Source of the DNA: a virus
IMG/VR virus record: IMGVR_UViG_3300022841_000021
Span: 1-51,285 of that record
DNA: 51,285 nucleotides
Strand: one strand, 5' to 3'
Shown: in pieces, positions 16,715 to 36,327 of the stretch
How positions within the stretch are numbered: position 1 is the stretch's first letter
Layout of the letters: every line of letters begins with the position of its first letter
The notes under the pieces: generated by a model
What the model saw: the letters and a program-made list of their open reading frames with translations, nothing else
Told to the model about the DNA's origin: nothing
Databases searched by the model: none
Made by a program: the position numbers and the translations under genes

Positions 16715-16720
16715 TTTATA

Positions 16721-19627
16721 ATGAGCAACATAGAACAAACGGTCGCAGCACATTCGAAATGGATTAACTCAGTTATTGAAAATAGTAAGCTACCTTCTGA
16801 GTTGGTTGAGACATTGGATTTAACAGCCTCTACCGAGGTCTCTATAGTTCAAGAAGGAGACCAGGATACCAAGAAAGTTAAAATACCATTGCTTAGAGGT
16901 TTTAAAGGCAATTGGAACTCTACGACAAACTCACCTGAGTTGGTAGACGGAGTTGGTCTACCTGGGGACGTATATACCCTTACTAGCGATTCTACAAGAA
17001 ATCTAGGTAGCGGTAATATAATCTATTTAATAAACGATTTAATTTACTACAACGGCTCTATATGGGTTAAGCTAACTCAATCTCAGATATCTGAAATAGT
17101 AGGTCTTCAAACCGCTTTAGACACTCTTCAGGAAAATATTGACGCAGAAGCTATTACTAGAGGTGACGCAGATACAACTTTACAAAATAACATAAGCACA
17201 GAGGCAACCGCAAGAGCAAGTGCAGATACAACTTTACAAAACAATATAGATTTAAAAGTAGATATTTCAAGTATTGTTGACAACGTAACTGCTGGGGGTG
17301 TAAGCGTTCCTTTATCAGCAGAGCAAGGAAAGATACTAAAAGCAGAAATACTAGCCTTAGCGGGTTCTTTAATACCGCAAGGCAATTGGGATGCAAGTAC
17401 TAATACTCCCGACATTTCAGGAACTACAGAAACAGGTTATTTTTGGATAGTATCGGTTGAAGGTGCTACCGATATTGGTGGAATTACTGATTGGAAAGTA
17501 AATGATTGGGCGATAAAAACCGCAGACGGTTGGGCAAAAATAGATAACACAGATAAAGTTTTAAGCGTAGCTGGTAAGATTGGCGAGGTTGTTTTAGCTA
17601 AAGCAGATGTAGGATTGTCTAATGTAGATAATACAACGGATGCAAATAAACCGATTTCAACCGCACAACAAACTGCCTTAGACTTAAAAGCGAATAAAGC
17701 TTCACCAAGTTTTACAGGAAATGCCAATTTTGCGGGTCTTGTTACAATAAATAATAGACTTGATTTAAACGATGCCTTAAATAATACTTTTATAGGTAGT
17801 AGTGTTGGAGAAAATAACACAACGGGAAGTTCCAACGCAGCTTTAGGCTACCTAAGTTTACAAAATAATACAACTGGAAGTGGAAACGTAGCTTTAGGTT
17901 TCCTAAATTTACAAAATAATACAACGGGAAATAGAAACGTAGCTTTAGGTTTCCAAAGTTTACAAAATAACACAACGGGAAATTCCAACGTAGCTTTAGG
18001 TTACCTAAATTTATATGAAAATACAACGGGAAGTTACAATGTAGCTTTAGGCTACCTAAGTTTACAAAATAACACAACGGGAGGTTCCAACGTAGCTTTA
18101 GGTCTTCAATCGGGTAGATATATAGCAGACGGAAATACTTCAAACGAAACAGGTTCAGAATCTATTTTTATAGGTAGAGATACTAGGGCAAACGCAGACG
18201 GAGAAACAAACCAAATTGTAATCGGAGTTAACGCTATCGGAAACGGTTCTAATACAGTTACTTTAGGAAATTCAAGTATTACAGATAATTACTTTCAAGG
18301 TAACTTAAGAGCTAGTAATTTTATAGGAGACGGTTCTGCTTTGACAAATATGCCTGTAAGTTCTGCACAACAAACCGCCTTAGATTTAAAAGCAAATAAG
18401 GCTTCACCAAGTTTTACAGGGGATGCTACGTTTGGGGGTGCTTTAACAGTAGGTCGTACGTCTGGTTATGGAAATTCAAGAATACAGTCTTTTATAGCTA
18501 CTACTGCAAACTTTGCTACATCTAATTTCCTTGCAGGAGATTCGGCAAATATGGCAGAAGGAGTTGGAGGAGAAATATCTTTTCTAGGTAAGTACGCGAC
18601 AGGTAATGATGATTTAGCTTTTTACGGTGGAATAAAAGGGTTTAAAGAAAACGCTACGGATAATAATACGGCTTGTGCGTTAGGTTTTTATACAAGACAA
18701 AATGCAACGGCACCAACAGAAAGAATGCGTATCAAAGCAAACGGAGATTTCGACTTTAAGTCAGGCAATGCCACGTTTGGGGGAAATGTAATTTTAGATG
18801 ATTCGAGAATTTATTCGGGTTCCTCAAATCAAAGGATAATACTTTCAGGTTCTAATTCAACTTCTTCAACTACTTACCAAGTAATTGAAGGCTATGACTT
18901 TGGTGGTACTGGTTTAGGAGGGGATTATTACGTAGTAATAAATAAAGACGGAACAACACCTACTAACGTTTTTAATATTGATGGAAAAACAGGAAACGCC
19001 ACTTTTGGGGGTAGTGTATTAATTAATCAAACAAGTTCCGTTTATAGTTTTGAGTTATTTCAAACAGGCACCGCTGCAACAAGTTACAATGCTTTAAGAA
19101 TAAGGGGTAACCATACGGATGCTGTTGGGATTATCGGAACTGGGGGTTCTTCAACTGGTAATACTGCGTTTAGAGATAAATTTGTTATTGGTACTCAAAC
19201 AGCACACTCAACTTCATTAGCAACAAGTGATACGGCTAGATATACTATTGATTCAAGCGGAAACCACGACTTTAAATCAGGCAACGCCACTTTTGGGGGT
19301 AATGTAACCGCTTCAAGTTTTGTAGGTACCATACAAGAAAATTTTACCTATTTAGATGCTAATTATACTTTATTAGATAGTGATTACAATTTGCACTCAA
19401 TAAAAACTAATGGAGAATTAACTGTTATCGTACCGTTAGGTTTAGGAATAAATCAGTCTTGGAATTTCAGTAGCGCACTTTTTAATATAAATCTTACACA
19501 TCCATCGGGTGTAACTATAACGACAATTCCTAACGGAAATGCTAACAACCTAAAATGCGAGGGATTGACTAGCGCTAGACTTGTAGCAACTTCAACGGCA
19601 AATGAATATCTATTTATAAAAGGATAA
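16721..19627 (+). CDS. Tail fibre with YadA-like head repeats, element A
   Basis: 968 residues. In order: an N-terminal attachment part (1-150), a coiled-coil-like linker with the repeated TTLQNNI.TEATARA segment, a collar-like domain containing GYFWIVSVEGATDIGG, then YadA/trimeric-adhesin-like 17-residue repeats ALGYLSLQNNTTGSGNV (about 374-460), further repeats of SFTGNATFGG type, and a beta-rich tip. Its residues from about 152 on share almost identical DNA with the fibre at 50310. Receptor binding is the expected role. Confidence 0.8.
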   Translation: MSNIEQTVAAHSKWINSVIENSKLPSELVETLDLTASTEVSIVQEGDQDTKKVKIPLLRGFKGNWNSTTNSPELVDGVGLPGDVYTLTSDSTRNLGSGNIIYLINDLIYYNGSIWVKLTQSQISEIVGLQTALDTLQENIDAEAITRGDADTTLQNNISTEATARASADTTLQNNIDLKVDISSIVDNVTAGGVSVPLSAEQGKILKAEILALAGSLIPQGNWDASTNTPDISGTTETGYFWIVSVEGATDIGGITDWKVNDWAIKTADGWAKIDNTDKVLSVAGKIGEVVLAKADVGLSNVDNTTDANKPISTAQQTALDLKANKASPSFTGNANFAGLVTINNRLDLNDALNNTFIGSSVGENNTTGSSNAALGYLSLQNNTTGSGNVALGFLNLQNNTTGNRNVALGFQSLQNNTTGNSNVALGYLNLYENTTGSYNVALGYLSLQNNTTGGSNVALGLQSGRYIADGNTSNETGSESIFIGRDTRANADGETNQIVIGVNAIGNGSNTVTLGNSSITDNYFQGNLRASNFIGDGSALTNMPVSSAQQTALDLKANKASPSFTGDATFGGALTVGRTSGYGNSRIQSFIATTANFATSNFLAGDSANMAEGVGGEISFLGKYATGNDDLAFYGGIKGFKENATDNNTACALGFYTRQNATAPTERMRIKANGDFDFKSGNATFGGNVILDDSRIYSGSSNQRIILSGSNSTSSTTYQVIEGYDFGGTGLGGDYYVVINKDGTTPTNVFNIDGKTGNATFGGSVLINQTSSVYSFELFQTGTAATSYNALRIRGNHTDAVGIIGTGGSSTGNTAFRDKFVIGTQTAHSTSLATSDTARYTIDSSGNHDFKSGNATFGGNVTASSFVGTIQENFTYLDANYTLLDSDYNLHSIKTNGELTVIVPLGLGINQSWNFSSALFNINLTHPSGVTITTIPNGNANNLKCEGLTSARLVATSTANEYLFIKG
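17175..17897 (+). repeat. Fibre segment shared with element B
   Basis: The coding sequence here aligns without a gap (constant offset 33388) to 50563-51285, with only scattered substitutions. The similarity is highest from 17560 onward. The match continues to the window end, so its right boundary is unknown. This is consistent with recent exchange of host-recognition DNA between the two elements. Confidence 0.9.
17840..18094 (+). repeat. Five 51-bp coding repeats
   Basis: Units start at 17840, 17891, 17942, 17993 and 18044, exactly 51 bp apart, with a sixth unit beginning at 18095. Each encodes 17 residues of the type ALGxLxLQNNTTGxxNV, the left-handed helical head repeat of YadA-type adhesins. 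Variation lies mainly in Tyr/Phe and the residues after TTG. Such tandem coding repeats can change copy number by slippage. Confidence 0.9.
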
Positions 19628-19696
19628 TTAATATAAAAGTTTTCTATAAGAAAACTAATATAGTAACAAATAGTTATAACAATAAGTAAATATAAT

Positions 19697-19759
19697 ATAA
19701 AAAAAATTATAAAAAATTGGAAAACGTCTTTAATGGGATTGGTAATAATCTTTACATAA
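19697..19759 (+). pseudogene. Decayed duplicate of the holin-like gene start
   Basis: The stretch 19661-19750 is a partial tandem copy of 19798-19887 (offset 137). Here the start codon is ATA instead of ATG and the frame ends after 20 codons (IKKIIKNWKTSL...), so it cannot encode the 54-residue product. The flanking TAGTAACAAATAG leader was copied too. Confidence 0.7.
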
Positions 19760-19833
19760 GGAACGCAATAGGATAAGAAAATTAAAAAACCTTTACATAG
19801 TAACAAATAGTTATAACAATAAGTAAATATAAT

Positions 19834-19998
19834 ATGAAAGAAATTATAAGAAATTGGAAAACTTCATTAATAGGATTGGTAATAATTACAGGACTTGCAT
19901 ACTCTGGACTTTCAAATGGCTTTACAATTTCAGAAGCAATAGCTGGACTGATTGCAATTGGATTTTTAAGAGCAAAAGATAAGAAAGATGACAAATAA
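19834..19998 (+). CDS. Small holin-like membrane protein
   Basis: 54 residues with a charged start (MKEIIRNWKTS), one or two hydrophobic segments (LIGLVIITGLAYS, then ISEAIAGLIAIGFL) and a Lys/Asp-rich tail. It opens the lysis cassette upstream of the endolysin, so a holin role is probable. Its last 11 bases overlap the next gene. Confidence 0.6.
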   Translation: MKEIIRNWKTSLIGLVIITGLAYSGLSNGFTISEAIAGLIAIGFLRAKDKKDDK

Positions 19999-20302
19999 AT
20001 TTTTATTAGAAGAAATACACAAAGAGCAGAAAGAACAAGCACAAAAACAATTGCAACTTTCTGCTGACTTTTCTAACTTTATGAATAAACAAGAAGCTTT
20101 TAATAAAAGGGTTACAAGTTTACTTTATAGCGACACAGACACCAACAGCACAGGGTACATTGAAAGTCACAACAAATTAAGTGAAAGAGTTTTAGACTTG
20201 GAAGTGAAAAACAAAGTAACCGCTGGAAAGGTTGCAATTAGTGTGATTATTGTTTCTGCAATAGGAACAGCAGTTTGGAAATTAATATCAATTTTAGACT
20301 AA
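19988..20302 (+). CDS. Coiled-coil protein with C-terminal membrane segment
   Basis: 104 residues: a Gln/Lys-rich N-terminal coiled coil (about 5-75) and a single C-terminal transmembrane helix (about 82-101, VAISVIIVSAIGTAVWKLI). A tail-anchored protein next to holin and endolysin could be a second holin or an antiholin. No family is recognised with certainty. Confidence 0.55.
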   Translation: MTNKFLLEEIHKEQKEQAQKQLQLSADFSNFMNKQEAFNKRVTSLLYSDTDTNSTGYIESHNKLSERVLDLEVKNKVTAGKVAISVIIVSAIGTAVWKLISILD

Positions 20303-20303
20303 A

Positions 20304-20642
20304 ATGAGCCTAAGTAGTAAACAAATTATTTTCAGTAAAAATATAGCAAGTCTTATAGTTTACGCAGATATGATAGGTATAGAATTGACTTTTGGCGATG
20401 CTTATCGTAATGAATTTACACAAAGAGAGTACGTAAGGTTAGGACTTTCTAAAACTATGAATAGTTTACACCGTAAGCGGTTAGCAGTAGATTTTAATTT
20501 CTTTATAGATGGTGAATTAACCTACAACAAAGACCGTTTAATGGATCTTGGCGAGTTTTGGGAAGGATTACACAAAAAAAATAAATGGGGTGGTAGTTTC
20601 TCTCGATTCATTGATACACCGCATTTTCAAATGTCAGAATAG
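20304..20642 (+). CDS. M15-family peptidase endolysin
   Basis: 112 residues, the size of a compact M15/VanY-like D-Ala or L-Ala-D-Glu peptidase. Visible zinc-site residues: H56 and D63 in SLHRKRLAVDF, and H107 in DTPHFQ, with WGG at 95-97 as in the family. It cleaves peptidoglycan stem peptides at the end of infection. No signal peptide is seen, so release depends on the holin. Confidence 0.88.
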   Translation: MSLSSKQIIFSKNIASLIVYADMIGIELTFGDAYRNEFTQREYVRLGLSKTMNSLHRKRLAVDFNFFIDGELTYNKDRLMDLGEFWEGLHKKNKWGGSFSRFIDTPHFQMSE

Positions 20643-20648
20643 TTTTTT

Positions 20649-21101
20649 ATGAAAAATCAAATATGTACATCTTGCAATAAATTAAAAGAAATTAAAAGTT
20701 TTGAGCATCAAAAAAACAGAAAAAACCCTAGAAAAAAGTGTAAAAAATGCAGAATATCTGAAAGAGTTTATACTGATGAGCAAAGAGAGAGTAGAAAGAA
20801 ATATGCATTAGAGCAAAGAAATAATCCTGCATATTTTGAGAAATATAAAAATAGTTCCCTACAAAGAAATTACAATATAAATTTATCTGATTATAAAAAA
20901 ATGCTAAAAAATCAGAAAGAGAGATGTGCAATTTGTAAAAATAAATTTAAAAGCAGTAAAAACACTCACGTAGACCACAATCACAATACATTAAAGGTGA
21001 GAGAATTACTTTGTTCAGGGTGTAACGCAGGTATTGGGTTATTAAAAGAAAATATAAAAACACTTAAAAGTGCAGTAGAATACATAAAAAGACACGAATA
21101 A
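20649..21101 (+). CDS. Endonuclease VII-like HNH protein
   Basis: 150 residues. Zinc-finger-like pairs C6/C9 and C31/C34 open the protein; the second half (from about 88) has the recombination-endonuclease-VII arrangement C93-x2-C96, HVDHNH at 107-112 and C122-x2-C125 with GIG. It sits inside the lysis cassette between endolysin and spanin, a typical place for a free-standing homing-type endonuclease insertion. Confidence 0.8.
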   Translation: MKNQICTSCNKLKEIKSFEHQKNRKNPRKKCKKCRISERVYTDEQRESRKKYALEQRNNPAYFEKYKNSSLQRNYNINLSDYKKMLKNQKERCAICKNKFKSSKNTHVDHNHNTLKVRELLCSGCNAGIGLLKENIKTLKSAVEYIKRHE

Positions 21102-21551
21102 ATGAAACTACAAAATAAATCTTACATCTTTTTATTAATCTTTTTTTTTGGTGGTTGTGTGGCTCGGAAGTCTACAATTGAGTACAAAGAGCGTATTGTT
21201 TTGGACACGATTAAAATTGAAACAATTAAAACAATTATTAAACCAATAAAAGAAACTTTAATAGTTCAGAACCCTTGTGATTCTTTAGGGATTTTAAAGC
21301 AATTTGACAAAGAAATTAAGACAGAATTATCTTCTGTTAGGGTTTACAATGATAAAGGAGTTATAAAAGCAGAAATAAACATAGACAGTTTAAAGCAAGT
21401 TTTAAGAACCGAATTTAAAAGCAACTACATAGCAAAGACAGACACAAAAGAAGTCGAAATTATAAGGTATAAGTACCATTTATGGCTTGTTTTAACATTA
21501 ATAATATCAATTTTACTAAATATATTACTACTAAAAGGAAAAGTATTTTAA
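21102..21551 (+). CDS. Probable one-protein spanin (u-spanin)
   Basis: 149 residues. The N-terminus has a lipoprotein signal (hydrophobic IFLLIFFF, then GGC with C19 as the lipidated Cys) and the C-terminus has a transmembrane helix (about 126-145), with a charged helical linker between. An outer-membrane lipoprotein tied to the inner membrane by its C-terminal helix is the layout of u-spanins, which fuse the two membranes in the last step of lysis. The position at the end of the lysis cassette supports this. Confidence 0.72.
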   Translation: MKLQNKSYIFLLIFFFGGCVARKSTIEYKERIVLDTIKIETIKTIIKPIKETLIVQNPCDSLGILKQFDKEIKTELSSVRVYNDKGVIKAEINIDSLKQVLRTEFKSNYIAKTDTKEVEIIRYKYHLWLVLTLIISILLNILLLKGKVF

Positions 21552-21564
21552 CTAAAAAGCAAAA

Positions 21565-22746
21565 ATGAAAATTCATAAAAATTTAAAAGCACAGGAAGCA
21601 GAATTATTAGGATTTCAAGTTAAGCCAAACGAAAAAAATAGAAAGTCAGCACGTTATTATATTACTATTGAAGATAACGAATACATTACGGAATTAAGAA
21701 GCACCCCAAATAAGCGAAAGTTTATTGAAACACAAAAGAAATTTGATAAAAGCGGAAACGTTATTTCTTCGGTGCAAAAGCTACAGAGTAAGCCGATAGA
21801 TATTCCTGAAAACTTCGAGGTAATTAAAGTATCTACTTCTAAAACCACCGGTCAACAATGGGTGCAATACGCTCCAAAAAAAGGTAATAACGAGAATGAC
21901 TATTTAAAATTAAAAGATGTTATAATTAAGGAGATGAAGACACACGCTCCGAAGTTTCCAAAGTTAAAAAGAGATAAACTAGCAGACGAACACTTACTTG
22001 TTATTGACCCAGCAGACGTACATATAGGAAAGCTTGCAACGTCTTTCGAGTGTGGCGAAGATTATAATAATCAAATAGCAGTACAAAGAGTTTTAGAGGG
22101 CGTAGACGGCATATTACAGAAGTCTAACGGCTTTAATATTGATAAAATACTATTTATAGGAGGTAATGATATACTACATATCGATACTCCCGATAGAAAA
22201 ACAAGCAATGGGACTCAACAAGATACTGACGGAATGTGGTACAACAACTTTCTAATAGCTAAAAGGCTATACATTGAAGTTTTAGAGAAATTAATAGGAA
22301 TAGCAGATGTACACTTTACATTCAACCCGTCAAATCATGATTACACAAACGGTTTCTTTTTAGCTGATGTAATACAAACTTACTTTAAAGACTGTAAGAA
22401 TATAACATTTGATTGTTCTATTGCACACAGAAAGTACTACACCTATCACACAAACTTAATAGGCACAACGCACGGAGATGGTGCAAAACCGCAAGATTTA
22501 CCGTTATTAATGGCGCAAGAGAGTAACGAATGGAGTGCTACAAAACACCGGTACATTTATACACACCACATACACCACAAAACTTCTAAAGATTTCGTAG
22601 GAGTTTGCGTAGAGAGTTTAAGAAGCCCAAGCGGAACGGATAGTTGGCATCATAGGAAAGGGTACGAACACGCACCGAAAGCAGTAGAGGGTTTTTTACA
22701 TTCTAAACTAAACGGGCAAGTCGCGCGCTTAACACATATTTTTTAG
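21565..22746 (+). CDS. Calcineurin-like metallophosphoesterase
   Basis: 393 residues. Residues 1-125 form a separate N-terminal domain. The metal-binding series is complete: DVH at 151-153, GGND at 199-202, SNHD at 256-259, THGD at 302-305 and THHIHH at 333-338. This is a metal-dependent phosphoesterase, probably acting on DNA or a nucleotide. Genes of this kind are found near the end of Bacteroidota phage late operons. A strong terminator follows, closing the late transcript. Confidence 0.85.
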   Translation: MKIHKNLKAQEAELLGFQVKPNEKNRKSARYYITIEDNEYITELRSTPNKRKFIETQKKFDKSGNVISSVQKLQSKPIDIPENFEVIKVSTSKTTGQQWVQYAPKKGNNENDYLKLKDVIIKEMKTHAPKFPKLKRDKLADEHLLVIDPADVHIGKLATSFECGEDYNNQIAVQRVLEGVDGILQKSNGFNIDKILFIGGNDILHIDTPDRKTSNGTQQDTDGMWYNNFLIAKRLYIEVLEKLIGIADVHFTFNPSNHDYTNGFFLADVIQTYFKDCKNITFDCSIAHRKYYTYHTNLIGTTHGDGAKPQDLPLLMAQESNEWSATKHRYIYTHHIHHKTSKDFVGVCVESLRSPSGTDSWHHRKGYEHAPKAVEGFLHSKLNGQVARLTHIF

Positions 22747-22778
22747 CCAATAAACACAATTTTACAATATAGTCTTAC

Positions 22779-22807
22779 AACCCTTATTTCGCATAATAAG
22801 GGTTTTT
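22779..22807 (+). terminator. Terminator of the element A late operon
   Basis: AACCCTTATT (22779-22788) pairs with AATAAGGGTT (22795-22804) around the loop TCGCAT, and a T run follows. Its reverse reading lacks an equally good T run. Confidence 0.85.
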
Positions 22808-22896
22808 ACGTGCTTAAAACCACCTTATTTGTAAGTTATTTTGTAAATAAACTGAAAATAAATAGAAATTATAGTGTTTTATATTGTATTGTATTG

Positions 22897-22904
22897 TATC
22901 TTTG
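22897..22904 (+). promoter_or_regulatory. Promoter of the small-gene cluster
   Basis: TATCTTTG matches the Bacteroidota -7 box. It lies 20 bases before the first ATG of the operon at 22924. The -33 region (around 22875) is only T-rich. The gap between 22747 and 22923 otherwise holds only the terminator. Confidence 0.65.
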
Positions 22905-22923
22905 AAGAAAAAACAAAGGAACT

Positions 22924-23124
22924 ATGAAAGAATTATTAAGTTTAACAGCAAGTAAATTAGTAGAAAATAATTTTAGCGATGAGTGTATTTTAGCTTGTGG
23001 TTCTGTTTTTAAACAAGCATTTATTGAGCAAGGATTTACAAGGGTTCTTTCGAATGAATTTGCTATAGACTCTTTAAAAATAATAATAACCACTTTAAGT
23101 AAAATTAAATATGAACTACTGTAA
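22924..23124 (+). CDS. Hypothetical protein
   Basis: 66 residues, helical, with two Cys near the middle (DECILACGS). First gene of a run of six or seven very small genes between the lysis cassette and the integrase. Function unknown. Confidence 0.55.
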   Translation: MKELLSLTASKLVENNFSDECILACGSVFKQAFIEQGFTRVLSNEFAIDSLKIIITTLSKIKYELL

Positions 23125-23194
23125 AAACAAACTAGAAAGAAAACCCTTAACACTGTGTAATGTTAAGCAGTGCAATAAGTGTAAGATAAAATAA
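23111..23194 (+). CDS. Possible 27-residue Cys-rich peptide
   Basis: MNYCKNK... with four Cys (CNVKQCNKC at the end), as in a small zinc knuckle. It starts inside the previous gene and stops two bases before the next ATG, a spacing that favours translation, but the length makes this uncertain. Confidence 0.4.
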   Translation: MNYCKNKLERKPLTLCNVKQCNKCKIK

Positions 23195-23196
23195 CT

Positions 23197-23466
23197 ATGA
23201 ATACAGATATATTTTTAACCAAAAAAAAGAAAGTAGATTTAACAAAGTGTTATTTTATGCTATGCAAAAGTATTGGAGGAAGCTTATTACTAAGAACTAT
23301 TTACACTTCTAAAGTAGATAAATCGGATGTTATATTTCATTACGAAGATGTTAAAAAAATGAATTGCGTATTTGCTATAAAAAACGATAAGAAAACTTGG
23401 GATAAGTTTAAAACCTTTAAGGGATTTATAAACAGAATAAATAAAGATTTAATTAAACAAAAATAA
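23197..23466 (+). CDS. Hypothetical protein
   Basis: 89 residues, basic, with strand-rich start (CYFMLCKSIGGSLLLRTIYTS) and a Lys-rich end. No motif recognised. Confidence 0.5.
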   Translation: MNTDIFLTKKKKVDLTKCYFMLCKSIGGSLLLRTIYTSKVDKSDVIFHYEDVKKMNCVFAIKNDKKTWDKFKTFKGFINRINKDLIKQK

Positions 23467-24365: not shown

Positions 24366-25673
24366 TTAAATTACAATATCTATTTTTTCGCTCCAATCTT
24401 TAGGAATATCTGCGTCTATTTTATGAATGTAATTCATTAAACCGCTTTCCGAATCGTGCCCTGTAATTGGCATAAGCTGCTGGATTGCTTCGTTAAAAGA
24501 TAGGTTTTCTTTCGTTCTTAAATATCTAAATAGATTAGTAATATAAGAATGGCGAAAAGAATAAATATTATCTCCTTTTTCTAGAGCTATAGGCGGCTTT
24601 TCTAATAACATTCTAACTTTTAAACGTGTAAATCTTCTAGTAATTGTAGAGCGTTTTTGTTGGTCTGTGGCGTTCCATATTTCGGGAATACCTGAAGGCG
24701 TAATTAAGCTGCACTCTTTATCATAGCTATCTAAATTCATAGCCTTTAAATCTTGTAGTAAAATAGTAGGTATACGCTTTGTCTTTAATGGCTTGTTTTT
24801 GGCTTGGTAATATAATAGTGCATCTTCTAAATTGATATCTTTTATTTTTAGCCTACAAACTTCTACAGGTCTTAAAAAATTATACGCTACAAATTTAACA
24901 ACTAATAAAAGTAAAGGATCGTTTTCTCTTAAAAAATTGGTAACGTCTTTAAGTTGTTTATTTGAAAGCGTTCTGTTTCTTTTTTCTTGGGTTCGTTCTT
25001 TTTCTATGTTTTTTACAAAGTTGTAATCAATTAAAAGAAGCTTCTTTTCCATTACAGAAAATAGCGAAGATAAATCCGCCTTATAATTGTTTCGAGTTCG
25101 TGCGGATGTCTTTTTTAAAATCTCGTTAAGGTATTTAATTACTATTTTCCTAGAAACTAACTTTAAATCCTTTCTTTGGTTTTCCTTACCCAAGTACTTT
25201 AGAAAGCTAAGTGCAGTTTTTTTATAGTCATTATATGTACTTAACGAAACGGTTAATTTAATTTGCTCCAAAGCAAGTTCTAACGCTTCTTTAATGCTTT
25301 TTGGCTTTTCTTTTTCTTCACCACCTAAATTTATAGAATCGTCATTATCAAATGGCGAATAACCGTCTTTTATGAATTCTGTTAAAAGTTTCCGCAATTC
25401 TATCAAAGCTTTATGCCTTGCTTTTTTAGTTTTTAAATAATTTACACCGCCTTTGTAATCTTTTTGTCTTTCTAGTTTTCCTGTTTTAGGATTTCTAAAA
25501 GCCCAGCGCATAAACCAGCTTTTAGATAAAGCGACCTCTTTTTCTTTTTGGGTTAAAGTTTCCCAGTCTTCAATTTTAACACTTCCCGTGTAAAACCCTA
25601 TAGAATGATTTTTGCCCATAAAACGGTATTTCTGTAAAGTTTCTTTTAAAGTTTCTTTTTTCTTTTTTTGCAT
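24366..25673 (-). CDS. int: Tyrosine recombinase integrase
   Basis: 435 residues: N-terminal arm (to about 115), SAM-like core-binding domain (about 125-225) and catalytic domain (about 235-435). Catalytic residues: R268 (LRPVE), a beta-hairpin Lys near 295-299, R374-H375 in YSFRHSY (Tyr replaces the usual first His, as often in Bacteroidota integrases), GH at 405-406 and nucleophile Y415 (MNYIH). It inserts the phage at a tRNA 3' end; the matching core lies just upstream of its start. Confidence 0.93.
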   Translation of the reverse strand: MQKKKKETLKETLQKYRFMGKNHSIGFYTGSVKIEDWETLTQKEKEVALSKSWFMRWAFRNPKTGKLERQKDYKGGVNYLKTKKARHKALIELRKLLTEFIKDGYSPFDNDDSINLGGEEKEKPKSIKEALELALEQIKLTVSLSTYNDYKKTALSFLKYLGKENQRKDLKLVSRKIVIKYLNEILKKTSARTRNNYKADLSSLFSVMEKKLLLIDYNFVKNIEKERTQEKRNRTLSNKQLKDVTNFLRENDPLLLLVVKFVAYNFLRPVEVCRLKIKDINLEDALLYYQAKNKPLKTKRIPTILLQDLKAMNLDSYDKECSLITPSGIPEIWNATDQQKRSTITRRFTRLKVRMLLEKPPIALEKGDNIYSFRHSYITNLFRYLRTKENLSFNEAIQQLMPITGHDSESGLMNYIHKIDADIPKDWSEKIDIVI

Positions 25674-25702
25674 AAAAAAACGGTTTAAAATTAATTAAAC
25701 CG
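25674..25702 (-). terminator. Terminator after the tRNA remnant, upstream of int
   Basis: On the minus strand CGGTTTAA (25702-25695) pairs with TTAAACCG (25688-25681) and is followed by seven T (25680-25674), directly before the integrase ATG. It lies 3' of the tRNA half, so it probably is, or replaces, the tRNA gene's own terminator. It would also block read-through into int. Confidence 0.75.
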
Positions 25703-25724
25703 CTTATTTTAAAGGCTTTGCCTT

Positions 25725-25768
25725 GTAGCGAAATCGGGATTTGAACCCGAGACCTCAGGGTTATGAAT
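25725..25768 (-). other. Attachment core: 3' half of a tRNA(CAT)
   Basis: On the minus strand the sequence reads from the anticodon loop TTCATAA through CCCTGAGGTC, the T arm (GGGTTCAAATCCC) and the acceptor 3' strand ending TTCGCTAC. On the 5' side the anticodon stem fails to pair (CGGA would be expected as AGGG), so no complete tRNA is present. This is the usual phage copy of a tRNA 3' end used by tyrosine recombinases. The exact edges of the core are not determined. Confidence 0.88.
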
Positions 25769-25938
25769 CCGAAAACAAGCGGTTTTTATCGGTATTTAAA
25801 AATTAATTAATACTTGCAAAGTCTTACTATGAGAGTGTTTACAGAGTATCTAGGTGTTTATCTATTTTTAGCGTTAAATGTTGAAAAGTTTACTGTAAAG
25901 TTTCCGCAACGTTTTTACTTTAATACTGTTTAATTTTT

Positions 25939-25946
25939 TATATTTG
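25939..25946 (+). promoter_or_regulatory. Promoter of the first gene of element B
   Basis: TATATTTG ends 24 bases before the ATG at 25971. The 200 bases between the attachment core and this box hold no gene. Confidence 0.65.
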
Positions 25947-25970
25947 AGTGAAAGAAAAAGCTATTACCCT

Positions 25971-26309
25971 ATGAAAAAGAAACAATCATTCTTGCAAAAA
26001 AGAACTATTGAACGTATCGAAAACTTTTGCGGAATTAAAGAACTTACCAAATATCTTAACAGACTTAAAAACAATCAAACCCCAATTAACAAACTTCATA
26101 TTTTAACAACTATTCAATATTATGAAAGTTTGTATTTATATTACGTATCAGTAGAGGATGATTTTATCGACTATAAAGAAAACGCAATGGATACCGTAAA
26201 GTTCTTAAACGAACAAAATCTTTTAAAAGATTGCCAATATTTATGCTTTTTAGTTGACCTTATAAATGATGGCTTAGAATATACTTCTAAAATTAGGCGT
26301 TTAGCTTAA
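25971..26309 (+). CDS. Hypothetical helical protein
   Basis: 112 residues, predicted all-helical. The ATG at 25971 is preferred to an upstream TTG at 25944, which lies inside the promoter box. The gene converges with the repressor gene and overlaps it by nine bases tail to tail. It lies where phages carry accessory lysogeny genes, but no family is recognised. Confidence 0.5.
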   Translation: MKKKQSFLQKRTIERIENFCGIKELTKYLNRLKNNQTPINKLHILTTIQYYESLYLYYVSVEDDFIDYKENAMDTVKFLNEQNLLKDCQYLCFLVDLINDGLEYTSKIRRLA

Positions 26310-26951
26310 CTTTTTAACAATTACTTTACTCTCTTTTAATTCCTTAAAAACTGCTTGAATGTTTAAATTATAAAGCATCAAGGCTCTATCGTTTTTACAT
26401 ATTATTTCGTTATTTAACGCGATATCTTCTTTTATAGAGGCTATGGCGTTTTGATTTTCTTTTAAAGTTTGAAGCTGGTTAAAAATAACGTTTAACTTGT
26501 CGTCTATTTTTAAATCTCTAAAATCTACGTTTTCGGTTACGTCTACATCTGTAGAAACAGAGTTTGCAAACTGTATTATACCTTTTCTTGTTTTTCTTTG
26601 TGGATTATCAATTTCATTATTAAGCACTCTCCTTATACCGCTTTCGTTTAATCCTGTTTGCTTGTGAATTTCGTACGCTTTATAACCTTGCTCTTTTATA
26701 ATACTTATAGCGTTCTTAAACTCCATATGTTCAGCGTAAAGAACCTCTATATCTTCCTTTACATCCTCTTTAAACAGAAAGGAATGTATCGCATCTATTG
26801 TTAAATCTCTAGGGTTTTTACTAGACTTATTTAGTATTTTACCTACTCCAGCCTCTGATACCTTAGTTGCTTTTGCTATACTATAGGCTGAAATGTTGTT
26901 TTTTTCGACATAATCAATGATTTCTCTTACTTTTCTTTCTTTATCTAACAT
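26301..26951 (-). CDS. Lysogeny repressor with two HTH units
   Basis: 216 residues. Two similar helix-turn-helix units lie in tandem: about 18-58 (AYSIAKATKVSEAGVGKIL) and 88-130 (AYEIHKQTGLNESGIRRVL), each followed by NP and a short helix. A charged coiled-coil-like C-terminus (about 145-216) probably makes dimers. It faces the early operon across an AT-rich region with repeated TTTAGTA motifs, as a CI-like repressor would. No LexA-type peptidase domain is visible, so induction would not be by self-cleavage. Confidence 0.75.
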   Translation of the reverse strand: MLDKERKVREIIDYVEKNNISAYSIAKATKVSEAGVGKILNKSSKNPRDLTIDAIHSFLFKEDVKEDIEVLYAEHMEFKNAISIIKEQGYKAYEIHKQTGLNESGIRRVLNNEIDNPQRKTRKGIIQFANSVSTDVDVTENVDFRDLKIDDKLNVIFNQLQTLKENQNAIASIKEDIALNNEIICKNDRALMLYNLNIQAVFKELKESKVIVKKLS

Positions 26952-27128: not shown

Positions 27129-27419
27129 ATGATTTCAAACAAAAACTTAAAAGACATTTTGTCAAGACAAGAAATTACAAGCTACTCTGGTTACACTTCA
27201 TTTACTACAGATGAAAAAGAATTAAACTTCTCCGCTTCTTTAGAGAACGCAAAACTTGTTTTTAGTTGTGCAATGTGGATAGGAACGGATGACGAAGAAA
27301 CGGTATTGACAGAAGAGCAAAAAGATATTATTTACTACACGCTTTTAGCAGCTGCTGAAGAGGAGATAGTAGAAAACGATATAGACCAAGAACACGCATT
27401 AACCTTAATATACTCATAA
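27129..27419 (+). CDS. Early hypothetical protein
   Basis: 96 residues, acidic, with a predicted long helix (YYTLLAAAEEEIVENDI). First gene of the early operon, so possibly an anti-repressor or other early regulator. No family recognised. Confidence 0.5.
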   Translation: MISNKNLKDILSRQEITSYSGYTSFTTDEKELNFSASLENAKLVFSCAMWIGTDDEETVLTEEQKDIIYYTLLAAAEEEIVENDIDQEHALTLIYS

Positions 27420-27421
27420 CT

Positions 27422-27607
27422 ATGGCAACTACACTAAGCACAGAGCGCACAAAGGAACTTTTAACAAGGCTAATCAGCGATGACTACGAAAAGATAGACT
27501 TTGAAATGGATTACATCTACGGTAAGGCAGACGAACTAATAGCACTCGCTTTAAGCTACGGTTTAAATGACCAAGCTAACGCAATGATAAGTAGTAAAAA
27601 CCTCTAA
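27422..27607 (+). CDS. Early hypothetical protein
   Basis: 61 residues, acidic, helical (TKELLTRLISDDYEKIDFEM). It begins two bases after the previous stop. Function unknown. Confidence 0.5.
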   Translation: MATTLSTERTKELLTRLISDDYEKIDFEMDYIYGKADELIALALSYGLNDQANAMISSKNL

Positions 27608-27616
27608 ACATAAAAA

Positions 27617-27850
27617 ATGAAAATCGAAGCATTAAGGTACGAATTAGTAAAAGTAGCAAAAGAAGTGGGTAACCATAAAATAGTTGCAGAAATAGCGGGT
27701 ATAAGTATCGCATACTTAGCACAAATAAGAACAGGTAAAAACGCCAAGTTAGATACAGACGAAAATATTAACTTATTAAGTGCTTTAATTAAAATCTATA
27801 GAAATATAGGTAAGACTAAAATTAACTCTTTAAACAGGGTTTTAAACTAA
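27617..27850 (+). CDS. Small HTH protein (possible Cro-like)
   Basis: 77 residues with an XRE-like helix-turn-helix (about 18-50: HKIVAEIAGISIAYLAQIRTG). It lies in the early operon facing the repressor, the usual place of Cro or a second early regulator. Confidence 0.55.
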   Translation: MKIEALRYELVKVAKEVGNHKIVAEIAGISIAYLAQIRTGKNAKLDTDENINLLSALIKIYRNIGKTKINSLNRVLN

Positions 27851-27853
27851 CTA

Positions 27854-28012
27854 ATGACACAATTAGACCAACATATTATAGCAAGTTTAGATTCTCTTTC
27901 GGATGAAGGAAAAGAGTTTGCGCGTAAGACGTTGGGAGTGTCAAAGCCAATTAGAAAAAAGAAAGATAATACGATTGCAAAACAAAAGATGTTTAAAGCA
28001 TTATTTACCTAA
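27854..28012 (+). CDS. Early small basic protein
   Basis: 52 residues, helical and basic at its end (IRKKKDNTIAKQKMF). The frame is continuous with good spacing to the preceding stop (three bases). An overlapping frame from 27903 is a shadow of this gene. Confidence 0.5.
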   Translation: MTQLDQHIIASLDSLSDEGKEFARKTLGVSKPIRKKKDNTIAKQKMFKALFT

Positions 28013-28022
28013 AAACAAAGAT

Positions 28023-28250
28023 ATGATTGAAATAGGATTAGTAGTAACAATATTAATATCAACGCTAATTATAGTAGGCTATTTATTTAAACTTATAAAA
28101 GACGACAAGCTTACAAAAGAAGATATTAGATACATAAGAGGTATGAATGTTCTTAAAAGTAAACAGTCTTATAGTAAAATAGAAATACAAAAAGCACAAC
28201 AAGACATTGATAGTTATTTAGAATTTAAAAAACAAATAGAAAAGATATGA
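28023..28250 (+). CDS. Small membrane protein
   Basis: 75 residues with an N-terminal transmembrane helix (IGLVVTILISTLIIVGYLF) and a long charged cytoplasmic helix. The ATG at 28023 is preferred over an internal-frame GTG or ATG that runs through the previous gene. Function unknown; early membrane proteins may affect superinfection. Confidence 0.5.
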   Translation: MIEIGLVVTILISTLIIVGYLFKLIKDDKLTKEDIRYIRGMNVLKSKQSYSKIEIQKAQQDIDSYLEFKKQIEKI

Positions 28251-28753
28251 AAAACATTTATGCAAAGATATTGGCAGCCAAAAAGGAGATTGGTACAATA
28301 TCAAAAGACAGTAAAAACCCATTTTTTAAGAGTAATTATTTAAGTCTGAACGGTCTTATAAATGCAGTTGAAGATGTATTGCAGAATCAAGATTTGCTTT
28401 TGTTACAACCTTTAGGAAATGGCGGTGTAAGTTCTATAATATACGATACCGTTAGTGCGGAGCAAGTGGAAAGTTTTATGATGTTGCCAAATATTCAAGA
28501 CCCGCAAAAATTAGGTTCTGCAATTACATATTTTAGAAGATACACTTTGCAAAGTTTGTTAGGATTACAAGCAGAAGATGACGACGGAAACCAAGCTTCA
28601 AAAAAAACTGTAGTTATACCCTCTGAAAAACTAAAGAAGTGTAAAAATTTAGCGGAGTTACAAAGCGTTTTCTTAGGTCTTACGAGAACAGAACAGACCG
28701 CAATGGAAACTTTAAAAAATCAACTTAAAACTACTTTAAATGGGAGCAAGTAA
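28247..28753 (+). CDS. erf: ERF-family ssDNA annealing protein
   Basis: 168 residues. The diagnostic segment GSAITYFRRYTLQSLLGL.AEDDDGN lies at 90-115, and the N-terminal part (SKNPFFKSNYLSLNGLINAVEDVLQ) is also typical. ERF proteins anneal complementary single strands and drive phage recombination, often helping circularise the genome. It overlaps the genes on both sides. Confidence 0.9.
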   Translation: MKNIYAKILAAKKEIGTISKDSKNPFFKSNYLSLNGLINAVEDVLQNQDLLLLQPLGNGGVSSIIYDTVSAEQVESFMMLPNIQDPQKLGSAITYFRRYTLQSLLGLQAEDDDGNQASKKTVVIPSEKLKKCKNLAELQSVFLGLTRTEQTAMETLKNQLKTTLNGSK

Positions 28754-28994
28754 AGAGATGTTTATAGATATGCGAGAGAGAGAATTTACAATTAATACAA
28801 CCTTAAAAATAAAGGGGTTTAATTTAATAGGATTGGAAAACTCTTTACGCCACGATTTCAATGTTATAGACTTTAAAATTATAGCAGACACCGAGAAACT
28901 TTACGCCAATGACGAACAGTTTAAAAAGCTGGTAAAGGCAAAAAAAGAAGCTACTAAGAATTGCGAACTGTATATCAATAGAAACAATGAATGA
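28740..28994 (+). CDS. Hypothetical early protein
   Basis: 84 residues, starting inside the ERF gene. A later ATG at 28758 is possible. It has a strand-helix-strand pattern (TLKIKGFNLIGLENSLRHDFNVIDFKII), as in small ferredoxin-like folds. Function unknown. Confidence 0.5.
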   Translation: MGASKEMFIDMREREFTINTTLKIKGFNLIGLENSLRHDFNVIDFKIIADTEKLYANDEQFKKLVKAKKEATKNCELYINRNNE

Positions 28995-29298
28995 GATACT
29001 TATAAAAATTACAGAATTAATAACAGAGTACGAAAGTGGTAAATGGATTTCTGCTGACAATTTAAAAGTAATGCAAAGGCAATTATCTACAAGTATTTAC
29101 CACCTAACAAAGCACAATATAGAGGCTTTTAACCAATGGAACGGAATAGTCTACAACGAAACCACAAGTAATGCAAAAGCGGTTACAAAGGCAGACCACG
29201 ATGTTCCCGAATTAAGAATGACACGCAAAATATTAGAGGCTGCAAGAGGTGTTAGTATAAGTATGAATAGCGAATTATCAATATTAAAAAAAGAATAG
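28987..29298 (+). CDS. Hypothetical early helical protein
   Basis: 103 residues, two long helices, no Cys. It overlaps the previous gene by eight bases. Its context between the annealing protein and the DUF3127 protein suggests recombination or replication, but nothing specific is seen. Confidence 0.5.
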   Translation: MNEILIKITELITEYESGKWISADNLKVMQRQLSTSIYHLTKHNIEAFNQWNGIVYNETTSNAKAVTKADHDVPELRMTRKILEAARGVSISMNSELSILKKE

Positions 29299-29303
29299 AA
29301 ACT

Positions 29304-29474
29304 ATGATTATTACAAGAGAACAACAAGAGAAGCTAGTAAGTGACTACCACAATGAAAAAGATAGAACAGTAAGCGAACATTTCGCTTTTATTGATGGTA
29401 TGGGTTCGATGTTTAGAATGGTGGATACAATGCTTATTAAAGAGTTAAAAGAACGTAAACAATTAAATAAATAG
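29304..29474 (+). CDS. Hypothetical small protein
   Basis: 56 residues, helical. Starts five bases after the previous stop and ends seven before the next ATG, so it fits the operon. Function unknown. Confidence 0.5.
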   Translation: MIITREQQEKLVSDYHNEKDRTVSEHFAFIDGMGSMFRMVDTMLIKELKERKQLNK

Positions 29475-29481
29475 AAACAAA

Positions 29482-29664
29482 ATGAGTAAAGATTTGAAAA
29501 AAGTAGAGGAAGTAAAAGAAGTTTTAAGCGCAGAGCAACAAAGAGCATTAAGTATTATAATTCAATCGGTTGAAATAGCAACAAAACAGGGTGCTTTTAG
29601 TTTAGACGATGCGGTGGTTATTGGTAATGCAAAGAACTTTTTACAGGAACTAATTAAAAAATAA
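29482..29664 (+). CDS. Hypothetical small protein
   Basis: 60 residues, helical (LSAEQQRALSIIIQSVEIATKQ). Similar small early proteins of Bacteroidota phages are common and unstudied. Confidence 0.45.
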   Translation: MSKDLKKVEEVKEVLSAEQQRALSIIIQSVEIATKQGAFSLDDAVVIGNAKNFLQELIKK

Positions 29665-29669
29665 AAATT

Positions 29670-29768
29670 ATGGAAGAATCAGATTGTTGTGGTGCAGATA
29701 GATGGCTAGGTACAGATGTCTGCAACGAGTGTAAAGAACACGCAGATTTTATAGAATTCGAGGATTAA
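29670..29768 (+). CDS. Small zinc-ribbon-like protein
   Basis: 32 residues with C6-C7 and a C-x2-C pair (VCNECKEH), which could bind one zinc. The start is five bases after the previous stop and the next gene starts 20 bases later. Short but well placed. Confidence 0.5.
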   Translation: MEESDCCGADRWLGTDVCNECKEHADFIEFED

Positions 29769-29788
29769 TAATTAAACAAGTAGAAATT

Positions 29789-30124
29789 ATGGAAGTAGTT
29801 GGAAAAATTAAAGTAGTAGGAGAGTTAGAAACATTTGCAAGCGGATTTACTAAAAAATTATTAGTAGTAACCACAGACGACCAATACCCGCAGAATATCG
29901 CTATTGAGTTTATGAAAGACAAAATAGACTTGTTAAACGGTTATGCAGTCGGTCAAGACGTGAAAGTGTCTATTAATTTAGGTGGTAGAGAGTGGATTAA
30001 CCCGCAAGGCGAAGCAAAGTATTTTAACAGTATTACAGGTTGGAGAATTGAAAAAGCAGAGGGCGCACCCGCACCATTTACACCGCCTACAGTCTTAGAA
30101 AAAGAAGACGATTTACCTTTTTAG
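29789..30124 (+). CDS. DUF3127-like ssDNA-binding protein
   Basis: 111 residues. A small beta-rich, OB-like core (about 1-90) begins with V-GKI-VVGELETFASGFTKK and ends in an acidic tip DDLPF like that of SSB proteins, which recruits partner enzymes. I assign it to DUF3127, a family common in Bacteroidota phages. It closes the recombination part of the early operon and is followed by a strong terminator. Confidence 0.78.
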   Translation: MEVVGKIKVVGELETFASGFTKKLLVVTTDDQYPQNIAIEFMKDKIDLLNGYAVGQDVKVSINLGGREWINPQGEAKYFNSITGWRIEKAEGAPAPFTPPTVLEKEDDLPF

Positions 30125-30139
30125 TTTTGTTAGTTTTTT

Positions 30140-30171
30140 CCCGTGCGTTTTCATAGTTCGCACGGGTTTTT
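30140..30171 (+). terminator. Terminator after the DUF3127 gene
   Basis: CCCGTGCG (30140-30147) pairs with CGCACGGG (30159-30166), a GC-rich 8-bp stem, followed by a T run. It separates the early recombination genes from the replication block. Confidence 0.9.
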
Positions 30172-30187
30172 AAACCCCTATAAAAAT

Positions 30188-30469
30188 ATGAATACATACG
30201 AATGCAGCGACGGTACAAGGCTTAAAAAATCTGTAATAGATAGTTTAGTTAGAAAGGCAAAAGAGCAGAAATTAAGGCAGTTTATAGATGAAAACGGATA
30301 TGTTTTTTGCGAAGAGTGCAAAGTTTCAAACGCTTTTAAATTTGACTGCTCACACGATTTAAGTGTAAAGAAATGCCAGGAGAATGGAACTACAGAACTA
30401 GCGTTCGATGTTAATAATATTTCAATACTATGCAGAAAGTGCCACCAAATTAAAGACAAACTCTATTGA
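30188..30469 (+). CDS. HNH-like zinc protein
   Basis: 93 residues from the ATG at 30188; a longer frame from 30143 would run through the terminator hairpin. C-x2-C pairs (FCEEC and LCRKC) frame CSHDLSV, the pattern of a small HNH nuclease. It is next to RusA, as in many phages where nuclease genes follow the replication genes. Confidence 0.6.
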   Translation: MNTYECSDGTRLKKSVIDSLVRKAKEQKLRQFIDENGYVFCEECKVSNAFKFDCSHDLSVKKCQENGTTELAFDVNNISILCRKCHQIKDKLY

Positions 30470-30789
30470 TTTTAAACATAAAAGCATTAAGCGTAAACCA
30501 AGCGTGGCAAGGCAGAAGATTTAAGACGAATAAATACAAAGCATTTGAGAAAGAAATGTTATTCGTGCTGCCAAATCTAAAGATAAAATTTAAAGGAGAT
30601 TTAAAGGTTACAATACATTACGGTTTTAGTTCAAAATTAAGCGATATAGACAACCCCACAAAATTAGTACTAGATATACTATGTAAAAAATACGGGTTCG
30701 ATGACAGGCAGATTTATGAGTTAAACCAAACTAAAGAAATTGTAAAAAAAGGAAAAGATTTTATATCAATTGATGTAAAAGAATTATAA
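30466..30789 (+). CDS. rusA: RusA-family Holliday junction resolvase
   Basis: 107 residues. The catalytic acidic motif is present: D60, D62-N63 in SDIDNPTK, K66, D70, and the later D79-D80 (FDDRQIYE). Cleaves branched recombination intermediates. The start is TTG at 30466, overlapping the previous TGA; no suitable ATG exists before residue 31. Confidence 0.88.
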   Translation: MILNIKALSVNQAWQGRRFKTNKYKAFEKEMLFVLPNLKIKFKGDLKVTIHYGFSSKLSDIDNPTKLVLDILCKKYGFDDRQIYELNQTKEIVKKGKDFISIDVKEL

Positions 30790-30801
30790 AAAAAAACAAC
30801 T

Positions 30802-31473
30802 ATGAAACTAACAAAAAGAAAAGGCTTTAATTTCTTCAGAAGTTACTTCGATGTTTATAACGAATTAGAAAAAGATTCTGATAAAGTTGCTTTTATAGAT
30901 GCGTTATTAGGTAGGCAATTCTTAGGAGTTAAACCCGAAAACTTAAAAGGGATGGCAAAGTTTGCGTACATATCTCAAACTAACAGTATTGATAGCCAGG
31001 TAAGGGGTTACGAAGATAAAACAAGGACTAAATTAAACCCCTTAGAGGTAAATAATTACACCCCATCTGTAGGGGGTTCGGTAGGGGGTAAGGTAACCCC
31101 TCCCCTACAAGTAGAAGAGAAAGAGAAAGAGAAAGTAAATAATAATACTACTGTGCCTTTGCAAAAAGCAAAGGGGTTGATTGATTTTGATTCTTTGTTA
31201 ATGTTCTTAAACTTAAAAACTGGTAAAAACTTTAGAATAATAAACAAAGCCACACGCCAAAAATTTAATGCAAGGCTAAAAGACAAATACACAAAAGAAG
31301 ATATTAGAAACGCAATTACAAACGCCTGTAAAGATACTTTTCACAAGGAGAACGGTTTTAAATATTTAAACCCTGAATATTTCAGTAGGTCGCAGACGTT
31401 GGATAGTCACGCTTTTAAGAAGATTAACGGAGTAATAGCAGCAGAAGTAAACCCATATTTTCCTAAAAACTAA
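30802..31473 (+). CDS. Replication protein with phage C-terminal domain
   Basis: 223 residues. N-terminal helical domain (about 1-75), a charged linker with Lys/Glu repeats (KEKEKEK), then a C-terminal part (about 125-205) resembling the conserved phage replisome C-terminal domain: LLMFLNLKTGKNFR, then the KEDIRNAIT helix and YLNPEYFSRS. Probably binds the origin or recruits the helicase encoded downstream. Confidence 0.7.
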   Translation: MKLTKRKGFNFFRSYFDVYNELEKDSDKVAFIDALLGRQFLGVKPENLKGMAKFAYISQTNSIDSQVRGYEDKTRTKLNPLEVNNYTPSVGGSVGGKVTPPLQVEEKEKEKVNNNTTVPLQKAKGLIDFDSLLMFLNLKTGKNFRIINKATRQKFNARLKDKYTKEDIRNAITNACKDTFHKENGFKYLNPEYFSRSQTLDSHAFKKINGVIAAEVNPYFPKN

Positions 31474-31478
31474 AAACG

Positions 31479-31985
31479 ATGAGCAACACAAAAAAACTAG
31501 CAAACGAGAAAGAGTTTAGAAACGTTAAAAAAGCGGGTGAAAAATTGCTATGGCGTTTATTACCAGATAAGTCAGGTCAGTATAAAGCGTTTAAGCCTAA
31601 TGAGAACGATTCTAACGCAATTAAATCTATTTTAGGTATGATTAATAGGATTGAAAAAAATAACGTCGCAAACAACACCCTTTTTGCAAAGCTTTATATT
31701 AACTTTTTAACGCAAGAAATTAGATATCACGGTACAACGGTTTTTGATGAAACCATTTTCGCAATTGTAAACGCAAAATTAGACTACTCTTTAGACTCTT
31801 ATTATGCAGCTTTTGTAAATGATTTACACGGCAACCAATATAATAAAATTGTAACAGATGAAACTGAAAAAGAGCAGTTAGAAACTGTTAAAATGGCACA
31901 ACAATTTAAGCAGACTTTTAGCCACGATTTTATAGCACCAAAATTAAACGAAGCAATTAACCACGCAATTTTAAACCTCTCATAA
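31479..31985 (+). CDS. Hypothetical replication-linked protein
   Basis: 168 residues, helical. It lies between the replication protein and the helicase; a helicase loader role is possible on position alone. The stop overlaps the next ATG by one base. Confidence 0.5.
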   Translation: MSNTKKLANEKEFRNVKKAGEKLLWRLLPDKSGQYKAFKPNENDSNAIKSILGMINRIEKNNVANNTLFAKLYINFLTQEIRYHGTTVFDETIFAIVNAKLDYSLDSYYAAFVNDLHGNQYNKIVTDETEKEQLETVKMAQQFKQTFSHDFIAPKLNEAINHAILNLS

Positions 31986-32983
31986 TGTTCAACTTAAACG
32001 AAACACCACAAGAACCAAAAGAGCAAATAGATTACTCTAAATATATTGTTAATTCTGATAGTATAAACAGTAGCGTACAAGCGTTTTTTAATGGCGAAAT
32101 TAAGAAAGGTTATGGTATTGGAATACCTTGTTTTGATGAGTATTTTGTATGTAAAGAAAATGAATTATACGCACTAACAGGAAAGAAAGGAGAGGGTAAA
32201 ACCACAATTAATCAAGCGATACAAATAATGCAATCTATTGTAAATGGTTTAGTGTGGGTTTGTGCTTACCAAGAAAACAAAGACTACTCCCAAAAGATAA
32301 ATTATTTAGACTATTTACTTGGAGAAAGTGCAAACAATGTAAGGTTGAAAAACCCTGAATTATACAACAAAGCAAGTCTTTGGATTGACAAACATTTTAT
32401 CTTTTTAAAGTTAGAAGATATAAGCACCGCTTTAGAGGTAACAAAGCATTTAATAGATTCAGGTGTAGAAGTTCACGCTTTAGTATTAGACCCTATCAAC
32501 TCTTTTATAAGTGGATTTAACACAACAGGCAACGGTTACTCTGACGGAGTAGAAACCGCAAGAAAGGTGCAAAGGTTTGTAGAAGATTACTGTACGGTTT
32601 ACGTTTCTCAGCACCCTAATATGAGAGCGCAAAGAGAAGATAAACCTGTAACTTCTTACGATGCAGAGGGTGGATGGTGGAATAATAAAGCAGATACAAC
32701 GTGGGTTATTAATAGAGAAAAAGGAACGTCTTTAAATAATATAGGAATAGAGAATGTAAGAAATAAACATACAGGAGGGAATAGAACAGACCCAGAAAAC
32801 CCTTTAATTATTGATTGGGATTTTTGTATTATAAATATAATAAAAGGCGGTGAAAAATATCAAAATGTAATACAATATTTAGTACGAAAACACAACCCTT
32901 TAAACTTTGACCACGAATATTTAGAAGAAACAAAAGAGATAATAACAGTAGAGCCAGCGGAAGCGTTTGACGTACCATTTTAA
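31985..32983 (+). CDS. Replicative helicase-like RecA-fold ATPase
   Basis: 332 residues. Walker A GKKGEGKTT at 66-74, Walker B with D169 (VHALVLDP) and a sensor segment VYVSQHPNM near 210. DnaB/T7-gp4-like RecA fold but shorter than full DnaB, with no N-terminal helical bundle. Probably the phage replicative helicase. It precedes DUF3310-like and regulatory genes. Confidence 0.83.
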   Translation: MFNLNETPQEPKEQIDYSKYIVNSDSINSSVQAFFNGEIKKGYGIGIPCFDEYFVCKENELYALTGKKGEGKTTINQAIQIMQSIVNGLVWVCAYQENKDYSQKINYLDYLLGESANNVRLKNPELYNKASLWIDKHFIFLKLEDISTALEVTKHLIDSGVEVHALVLDPINSFISGFNTTGNGYSDGVETARKVQRFVEDYCTVYVSQHPNMRAQREDKPVTSYDAEGGWWNNKADTTWVINREKGTSLNNIGIENVRNKHTGGNRTDPENPLIIDWDFCIINIIKGGEKYQNVIQYLVRKHNPLNFDHEYLEETKEIITVEPAEAFDVPF

Positions 32984-32993
32984 AAAGTAAGAT

Positions 32994-33380
32994 ATGAACA
33001 CACAAGAAAAATATAACGAGTTAATGGAAGCAGCAGAAGAAAGAATGAACATTATAGGACAAAATGGAAACGATGGTTTGGTATACGAAGAGCCAAGCCA
33101 ATACCAAAAAGACCTACAGAAATACTATTCTAAAATAGGCTTAGACGTTGTTAGCGATGTTGCATTCCCAAAAGAAGAAAACAAATACAAGGTGAAGTGC
33201 AAAGGTGTAGAGATTGACGTGTACGATGTTCTATGGGCGTTTGATGTTATAAACCCAGCAATTCAACACGCAATAAAGAAATTATTAAAAGGTGGCGAAA
33301 GAGGATATAAAGACGAATCACAAGATTACAAGGAAGCCGTGCAAAGTATTAACAGAGCAATAGAACTTATAAAAGAATGA
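32994..33380 (+). CDS. DUF3310-like protein, copy B
   Basis: 128 residues, homologous in its last 70 residues to the product at 1154-1492 (YKVKCKGVEIDVYDVL...). The 42 bases 33251-33292 are identical to 1366-1407. An N-terminal part differs and is longer than copy A. Function not established. Confidence 0.65.
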   Translation: MNTQEKYNELMEAAEERMNIIGQNGNDGLVYEEPSQYQKDLQKYYSKIGLDVVSDVAFPKEENKYKVKCKGVEIDVYDVLWAFDVINPAIQHAIKKLLKGGERGYKDESQDYKEAVQSINRAIELIKE

Positions 33381-33580
33381 GATTCACAATAAATAAACTA
33401 TTCACAGAATTGTTTTTGAGTTACAGAACCACACAGACAGAGTTCGGACACCTTACAGACACAAATAAAAACACGGTACACGATTGGATCAAAGAAAAGA
33501 ACCAAATAAAATTTAGCAAACTAGAAGAAATCTGCAAAGAGTTAGGTTTAAAAGTTGAAATAAAAATATCAAAAATATAA
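33377..33580 (+). CDS. Small HTH regulator
   Basis: 67 residues with an HTH-like segment (TQTEFGHLTDTNKNTVHDWIKEKNQ, about 19-43) and a C-terminal strand. It overlaps the previous gene by four bases. Possibly controls late genes. Confidence 0.55.
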   Translation: MRFTINKLFTELFLSYRTTQTEFGHLTDTNKNTVHDWIKEKNQIKFSKLEEICKELGLKVEIKISKI

Positions 33581-33581
33581 A

Positions 33582-34330: not shown

Positions 34331-34338
34331 ATAAACAT

Positions 34339-34430: not shown

Positions 34431-34501
34431 TTCATTTATTTACAAACAAAACAGTACTTTACAATACAAATAGATTACCTTTATATCGTAAAACACCCCT
34501 T

Positions 34502-36295: not shown

Positions 36296-36319
36296 ATTAA
36301 CATTATAGATTTTAATGAT

Positions 36320-36327
36320 TATTTTTG
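36320..36327 (+). promoter_or_regulatory. Promoter upstream of portal
   Basis: TATTTTTG lies 26 bases before the portal ATG. A half-site GTATAAATTATA follows (36333-36344), similar to part of the repeats in the promoters at 39496 and 44247. Confidence 0.5.

Follow-up and report, generated by a model that had tools for sequence, protein, structure and literature searches.

A tRNA-Met attP of a temperate phage in a probably chimeric viral contig joined at a shared tail-fibre stretch

The window analysed here corresponds to a complete virus-collection record, 51,285 bp in length. It contains a leftward gene (24366–25673, minus strand) coding for a 435-aa tyrosine integrase, which falls into the tyrosine recombinase family according to PHROG (phrog_1, E = 7e-27) and Pfam PF00589 (Phage_integrase, E = 1e-5, with a score 1.2 bits under the curated cut-off) and has full-length relatives in other phage contigs with 66–83% identity. 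A terminator 3′ of the integrase gene is plausible. Beside the integrase lie the 3′-terminal 46 nt of a tRNA-Met(CAT) without its 5′ half (25725–25770, minus strand), and a sub-threshold Rfam match to the STnc450 sRNA is located at 25668–25730 on an AT-rich hairpin. On the far side of this tRNA fragment there are a small ORF (25944–26309, plus strand), a divergent HTH repressor (26301–26951, minus strand; PHROG transcriptional repressor, E = 7e-7; Pfam HTH_26) and an early operon (27129–34330, plus strand). The leftward integrase, the tRNA(CAT) 3′ half lacking a 5′ half, and the repressor with the early operon had been noted in the initial annotation, and all of them are indeed present. The late region (34666–51285, plus strand) contains genes assigned with PHROGs to the small and large terminase subunits, portal, capsid, tape measure and tail proteins and the 5′ part of a tail fibre gene, where the contig ends. 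These genes are hereafter attributed to phage B, and the structural genes in the left 17.8 kb of the window to phage A.

The 46-nt stretch is identical to positions 30–75 of the tRNA-Met(CAT) gene from a Flavobacterium metagenome-assembled genome (MAG; contig L040), with a chance expectation of about 1e-21, which makes this MAG a candidate host relative. Neither a tRNA 5′ half next to the 3′ half at the junction nor, according to ARAGORN, an intact tRNA anywhere in the window was detected. A tmRNA identity of the core was considered and rejected, as the Rfam match was below the threshold and is explained by the T-arm, the match to tRNA-Met being exact. The arrangement with a tRNA 3′ half beside the integrase gene and no 5′ half is found in all five integrase relatives in which the att region is covered (L002–L006), and the T-stem pairing of the core is kept among the relatives by paired changes (TCGGG/CCCGA vs ACGGG/CCCGT). 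The exact core or attP was searched for in the other phage contigs and not found. When host genomes were searched for an integrated copy, neither the genome collection nor 396 genomes of the family to which the Flavobacterium MAG belongs contained a close homologue of the integrase, apart from one 40% match in that family, which had no tRNA. In a Sphingobacterium MAG, the same tRNA-Met 3′ end occurs without 5′ halves at three locations (L042, 153–194; L043, 300–341 and 3741–3782), which are possibly att remnants of integrated elements.

The gene order around the junction is shared with related contigs. One of them, the 8,998-bp contig G003 (locus L002), contains in order a homologue of the B tail gene 47670, a homologue of the gene at 49840 (75%), a different fibre and lysis genes, followed by the exonuclease (91%), the integrase (83%), the tRNA 3′ half, a homologue of the small ORF at 25944 (62%), the repressor (68%) and early genes, so that the order of the genes beyond the tRNA fragment matches that in the window. 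The position of the small ORF is kept in relatives, with 37–45% identity in G004, G006 and G007, and G006 likewise has homologues of the early operon, largely in matching order. The late region is colinear with the 35,473-bp contig G012, which contains B's genes from the terminase (86%) through the tail genes in order and then an integrase with 66% identity.

The right end of the window, 51159–51285 (plus strand), is an exact 127-nt copy of the internal stretch 17771–17897, the first base inward of the overlap differing between the two copies. The overlap is located within two homologous tail-fibre genes, namely 16721–19627 and the open 50310–51285. An end repeat of exactly this kind is the pattern expected from a de Bruijn assembly with k = 127 whose path re-enters itself, and the window therefore looks like a lasso-shaped assembly. 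JGI metagenomes are assembled with metaSPAdes, with k up to 127. The contig G009, which belongs to another phage, likewise has an exact 127-nt end overlap, in this case inverted.

Two separate contigs show where the sequences on either side of the overlap lead. The 17,897-bp contig 3300022822_000114 is identical letter for letter and over its whole length to positions 1–17897 of the window, so phage A stops there at the end of the 127-mer. The 20,159-bp contig 3300035698_000302 (G002) corresponds to positions 33054–51285 followed by 17898–19824 with 0 mismatches, which means that phage B crosses the 127-mer and runs on from its tail fibre into the window sequence downstream of A. The end of the latter contig (19824) falls inside a 90-nt stretch, 19660–19749, which is repeated at 19797–19886 with 93% identity upstream of the lysis genes.

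With the exact overlap crossed by this independent sequence, positions 17771–51158 are closed by one k-mer into a circle of 33,388 bp. The tail-fibre ORF stays in frame through the closure and codes for 901 aa, the same protein being obtained from the separate contig. The region 17771–23466 (plus strand) thereby continues phage B past the overlap with the distal tail fibre, the lysis genes and the exonuclease. The exonuclease gene (21565–22746) is 91% identical to that in G003, where it adjoins a B-type integrase. The circle contains one each of integrase, attP, repressor, terminase, portal, capsid, tape measure, tail fibre and endolysin, and reads in the order attP, repressor, early genes, terminase, head, tail, tail fibre, lysis, exonuclease, integrase and attP again. 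No single contig includes the whole circle, the segment 19824–33054 being linked solely through the window and the relatives. A single circular, read-supported genome with one att site, named in the initial annotation as the outcome that would speak against tandem prophages, is thus nearly obtained for phage B, with the closure provided by contigs in place of reads.

The left part of the window (1–17770, plus strand) is the structural half of the different phage A, including portal, capsid, tape measure, tail and proximal tail fibre genes, and is joined to the rest at the shared tail-fibre stretch. The A genes occur in colinear order in two relatives, G009 and G010, both of which encode the terminase past the tail fibre on the opposite strand. 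No large terminase subunit was found among the ORFs of the left set, which the location of the terminase in G009 and G010 would explain. The initial annotation had described two complete late regions; portal, major capsid and tape measure genes are indeed present twice, the left set being without the large terminase subunit and the right one running off the contig in the tail fibre. No Pfam integrase match was obtained in the A-type contigs G001, G009, G010, G013 and G014, with the model scoring even the window integrase just below the cut-off and these contigs possibly incomplete, so the absence of an integrase is not absolute; a weak match was found in the distant A-type contig G011. The search for the missing right end of A with an A-type terminase revealed no contig of A itself. 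The contig G009 was considered as a circular A genome and rejected, since its apparent terminal repeat proved to be inverted. Exact inverted terminal repeats are present in two A-type contigs, 127 nt in G009 (L049–L050) and 1,571 nt in G010 (L051–L052), the latter containing a VRR-NUC gene resembling window positions 820–1149 (noted region 396–1143). In this phage group, such ends could point to long inverted repeats, a segment able to invert or some further effect of assembly.

The tail-fibre sequence common to A (17170–17897) and B (50558–51285) is 92.6% identical over 728 nt, rising to identity, with all 54 differences located before position 17771. From the sequence comparison, this suggests that the receptor-binding part was exchanged recently and that the two phages perhaps share a host. 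A and B also have a small gene in common ahead of the head genes (1285–1493 in A and 33170–33378 in B), with 77% nucleotide identity.

Taken together, the core and the genes around it, the closure seen in a second, separate contig and the matching layout of the relatives very probably mean that the junction is an ordinary attP, belonging to a single temperate phage, the siphovirus-like and tRNA-Met-targeting B, present as free circular or concatemeric DNA, and that A represents a second phage type fused to it by the assembler at the shared tail fibre. The join of A to the integrase side is then probably chimeric, an assembly artefact. The A tail-fibre gene shares at least 127 identical nucleotides with that of B, and the assembler path probably led from A through the shared stretch and round the B circle, to halt on meeting the shared stretch again. 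It is known that de Bruijn assemblers have difficulty in pairing contigs that are separated by a conserved region (PMC11443906). If it acts like other integrases that target tRNAs, the B integrase would use the tRNA-Met core, recombining it with the 3′ half of the tRNA-Met gene of a presumably flavobacterium-like host; integration would restore a complete tRNA next to the integrase, with the repeat remaining next to the repressor.

An unlikely alternative is that A is a true recombinant, sharing with B the fibre part and the lysis–integrase–attP block, in which case A and B would be separate free phages and the junction would still be an ordinary attP. The identity between the two fibres climbs from about 80–90% to 100% at the join, as it does at a recombination boundary, and the assembler did connect A to position 17898 onwards; the relatives of A, on the other hand, have a different right end, in which the terminase is oppositely oriented, and gave no integrase match. 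Two phage types, one temperate and the other probably not, would on this account have swapped the distal receptor-binding fibre and perhaps the lysis–integrase–attP block recently, given at least 127 identical nucleotides, leaving A with the integrase and attP of B, a course of events to which we give little credence.

The reading favoured in the initial annotation, two different prophages in tandem at one tRNA-Met gene, with the attP-like junction as their boundary and identical right ends (distal fibre, lysis genes and integrase), now appears highly improbable. Two structural gene sets do lie within one contig, tandem prophages at one att site have been documented (PMC9934374), and identical right ends could yield the same assembly graph. 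Against it stand the two separate contigs, one of which takes B into the supposed right end of A while the other contains A alone and ends at the shared 127-mer, together with the close A relatives, which gave no integrase match and in which an oppositely oriented terminase follows the tail fibre, and the B-type relative in which the whole int–attP–repressor block accompanies its own tail genes. In addition, no intact tRNA is present in the window. The same contigs and the relative G003 support instead what the initial annotation had offered as its alternative, one circular phage with a free attP. A single real phage or cointegrate genome with both structural sets and one attP, which is how the contig reads as assembled, can be practically dismissed, as the contig end is an internal 127-mer, A alone and B alone are found in separate contigs, and the relatives have one structural set each.

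The outcome is chiefly a correction. Two phages can be fused in a contig whose end is a copy, exactly one k-mer long, of an internal stretch, and the present contig could be mistaken for tandem prophages or for an oversized genome. An uncultured temperate phage whose genome is almost closed and whose attachment site at tRNA-Met is clear was also obtained, and two phages of different types were seen to share tail-fibre sequence.

Phage B resembles the P22/P4-type phages which integrate at tRNA 3′ ends in that the integrase gene adjoins a copy of the tRNA 3′ half, from the anticodon arm to the tRNA end. There is no difference of principle, except that the tRNA of B is Met(CAT) and its integrase is divergent, being close only to those of uncultured phages. 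Among the known phages compared, Leeuwenhoekiella phage vB_LaeS_Arctus_1 (PP314354.1) encodes an integrase at one genome end (31% identity to that of B, 90% query coverage) and an S24-type repressor at the other, a lysogeny-type layout like that of B; its capsid protein, in the comparison made with that of phage A, matches with 30% identity. Phage A is similar to the Flavobacterium phages of the genus Muminvirus (snusmum and hattifnatt), with a 56% identical capsid and a VRR-NUC gene upstream of the head genes, although in the latter the terminase is located directly before the portal, and no integrase is annotated. The arrangement proposed in the initial annotation is known from prophiT36-2a/b of Mycobacterium abscessus, a pair of different phages that meet at a common att site; their chromosomal context has been established, and the attP of each phage was detected in the supernatant (PMC9934374). 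In the window, unlike in that pair, the two phages are joined in the tail fibre, away from the att site.
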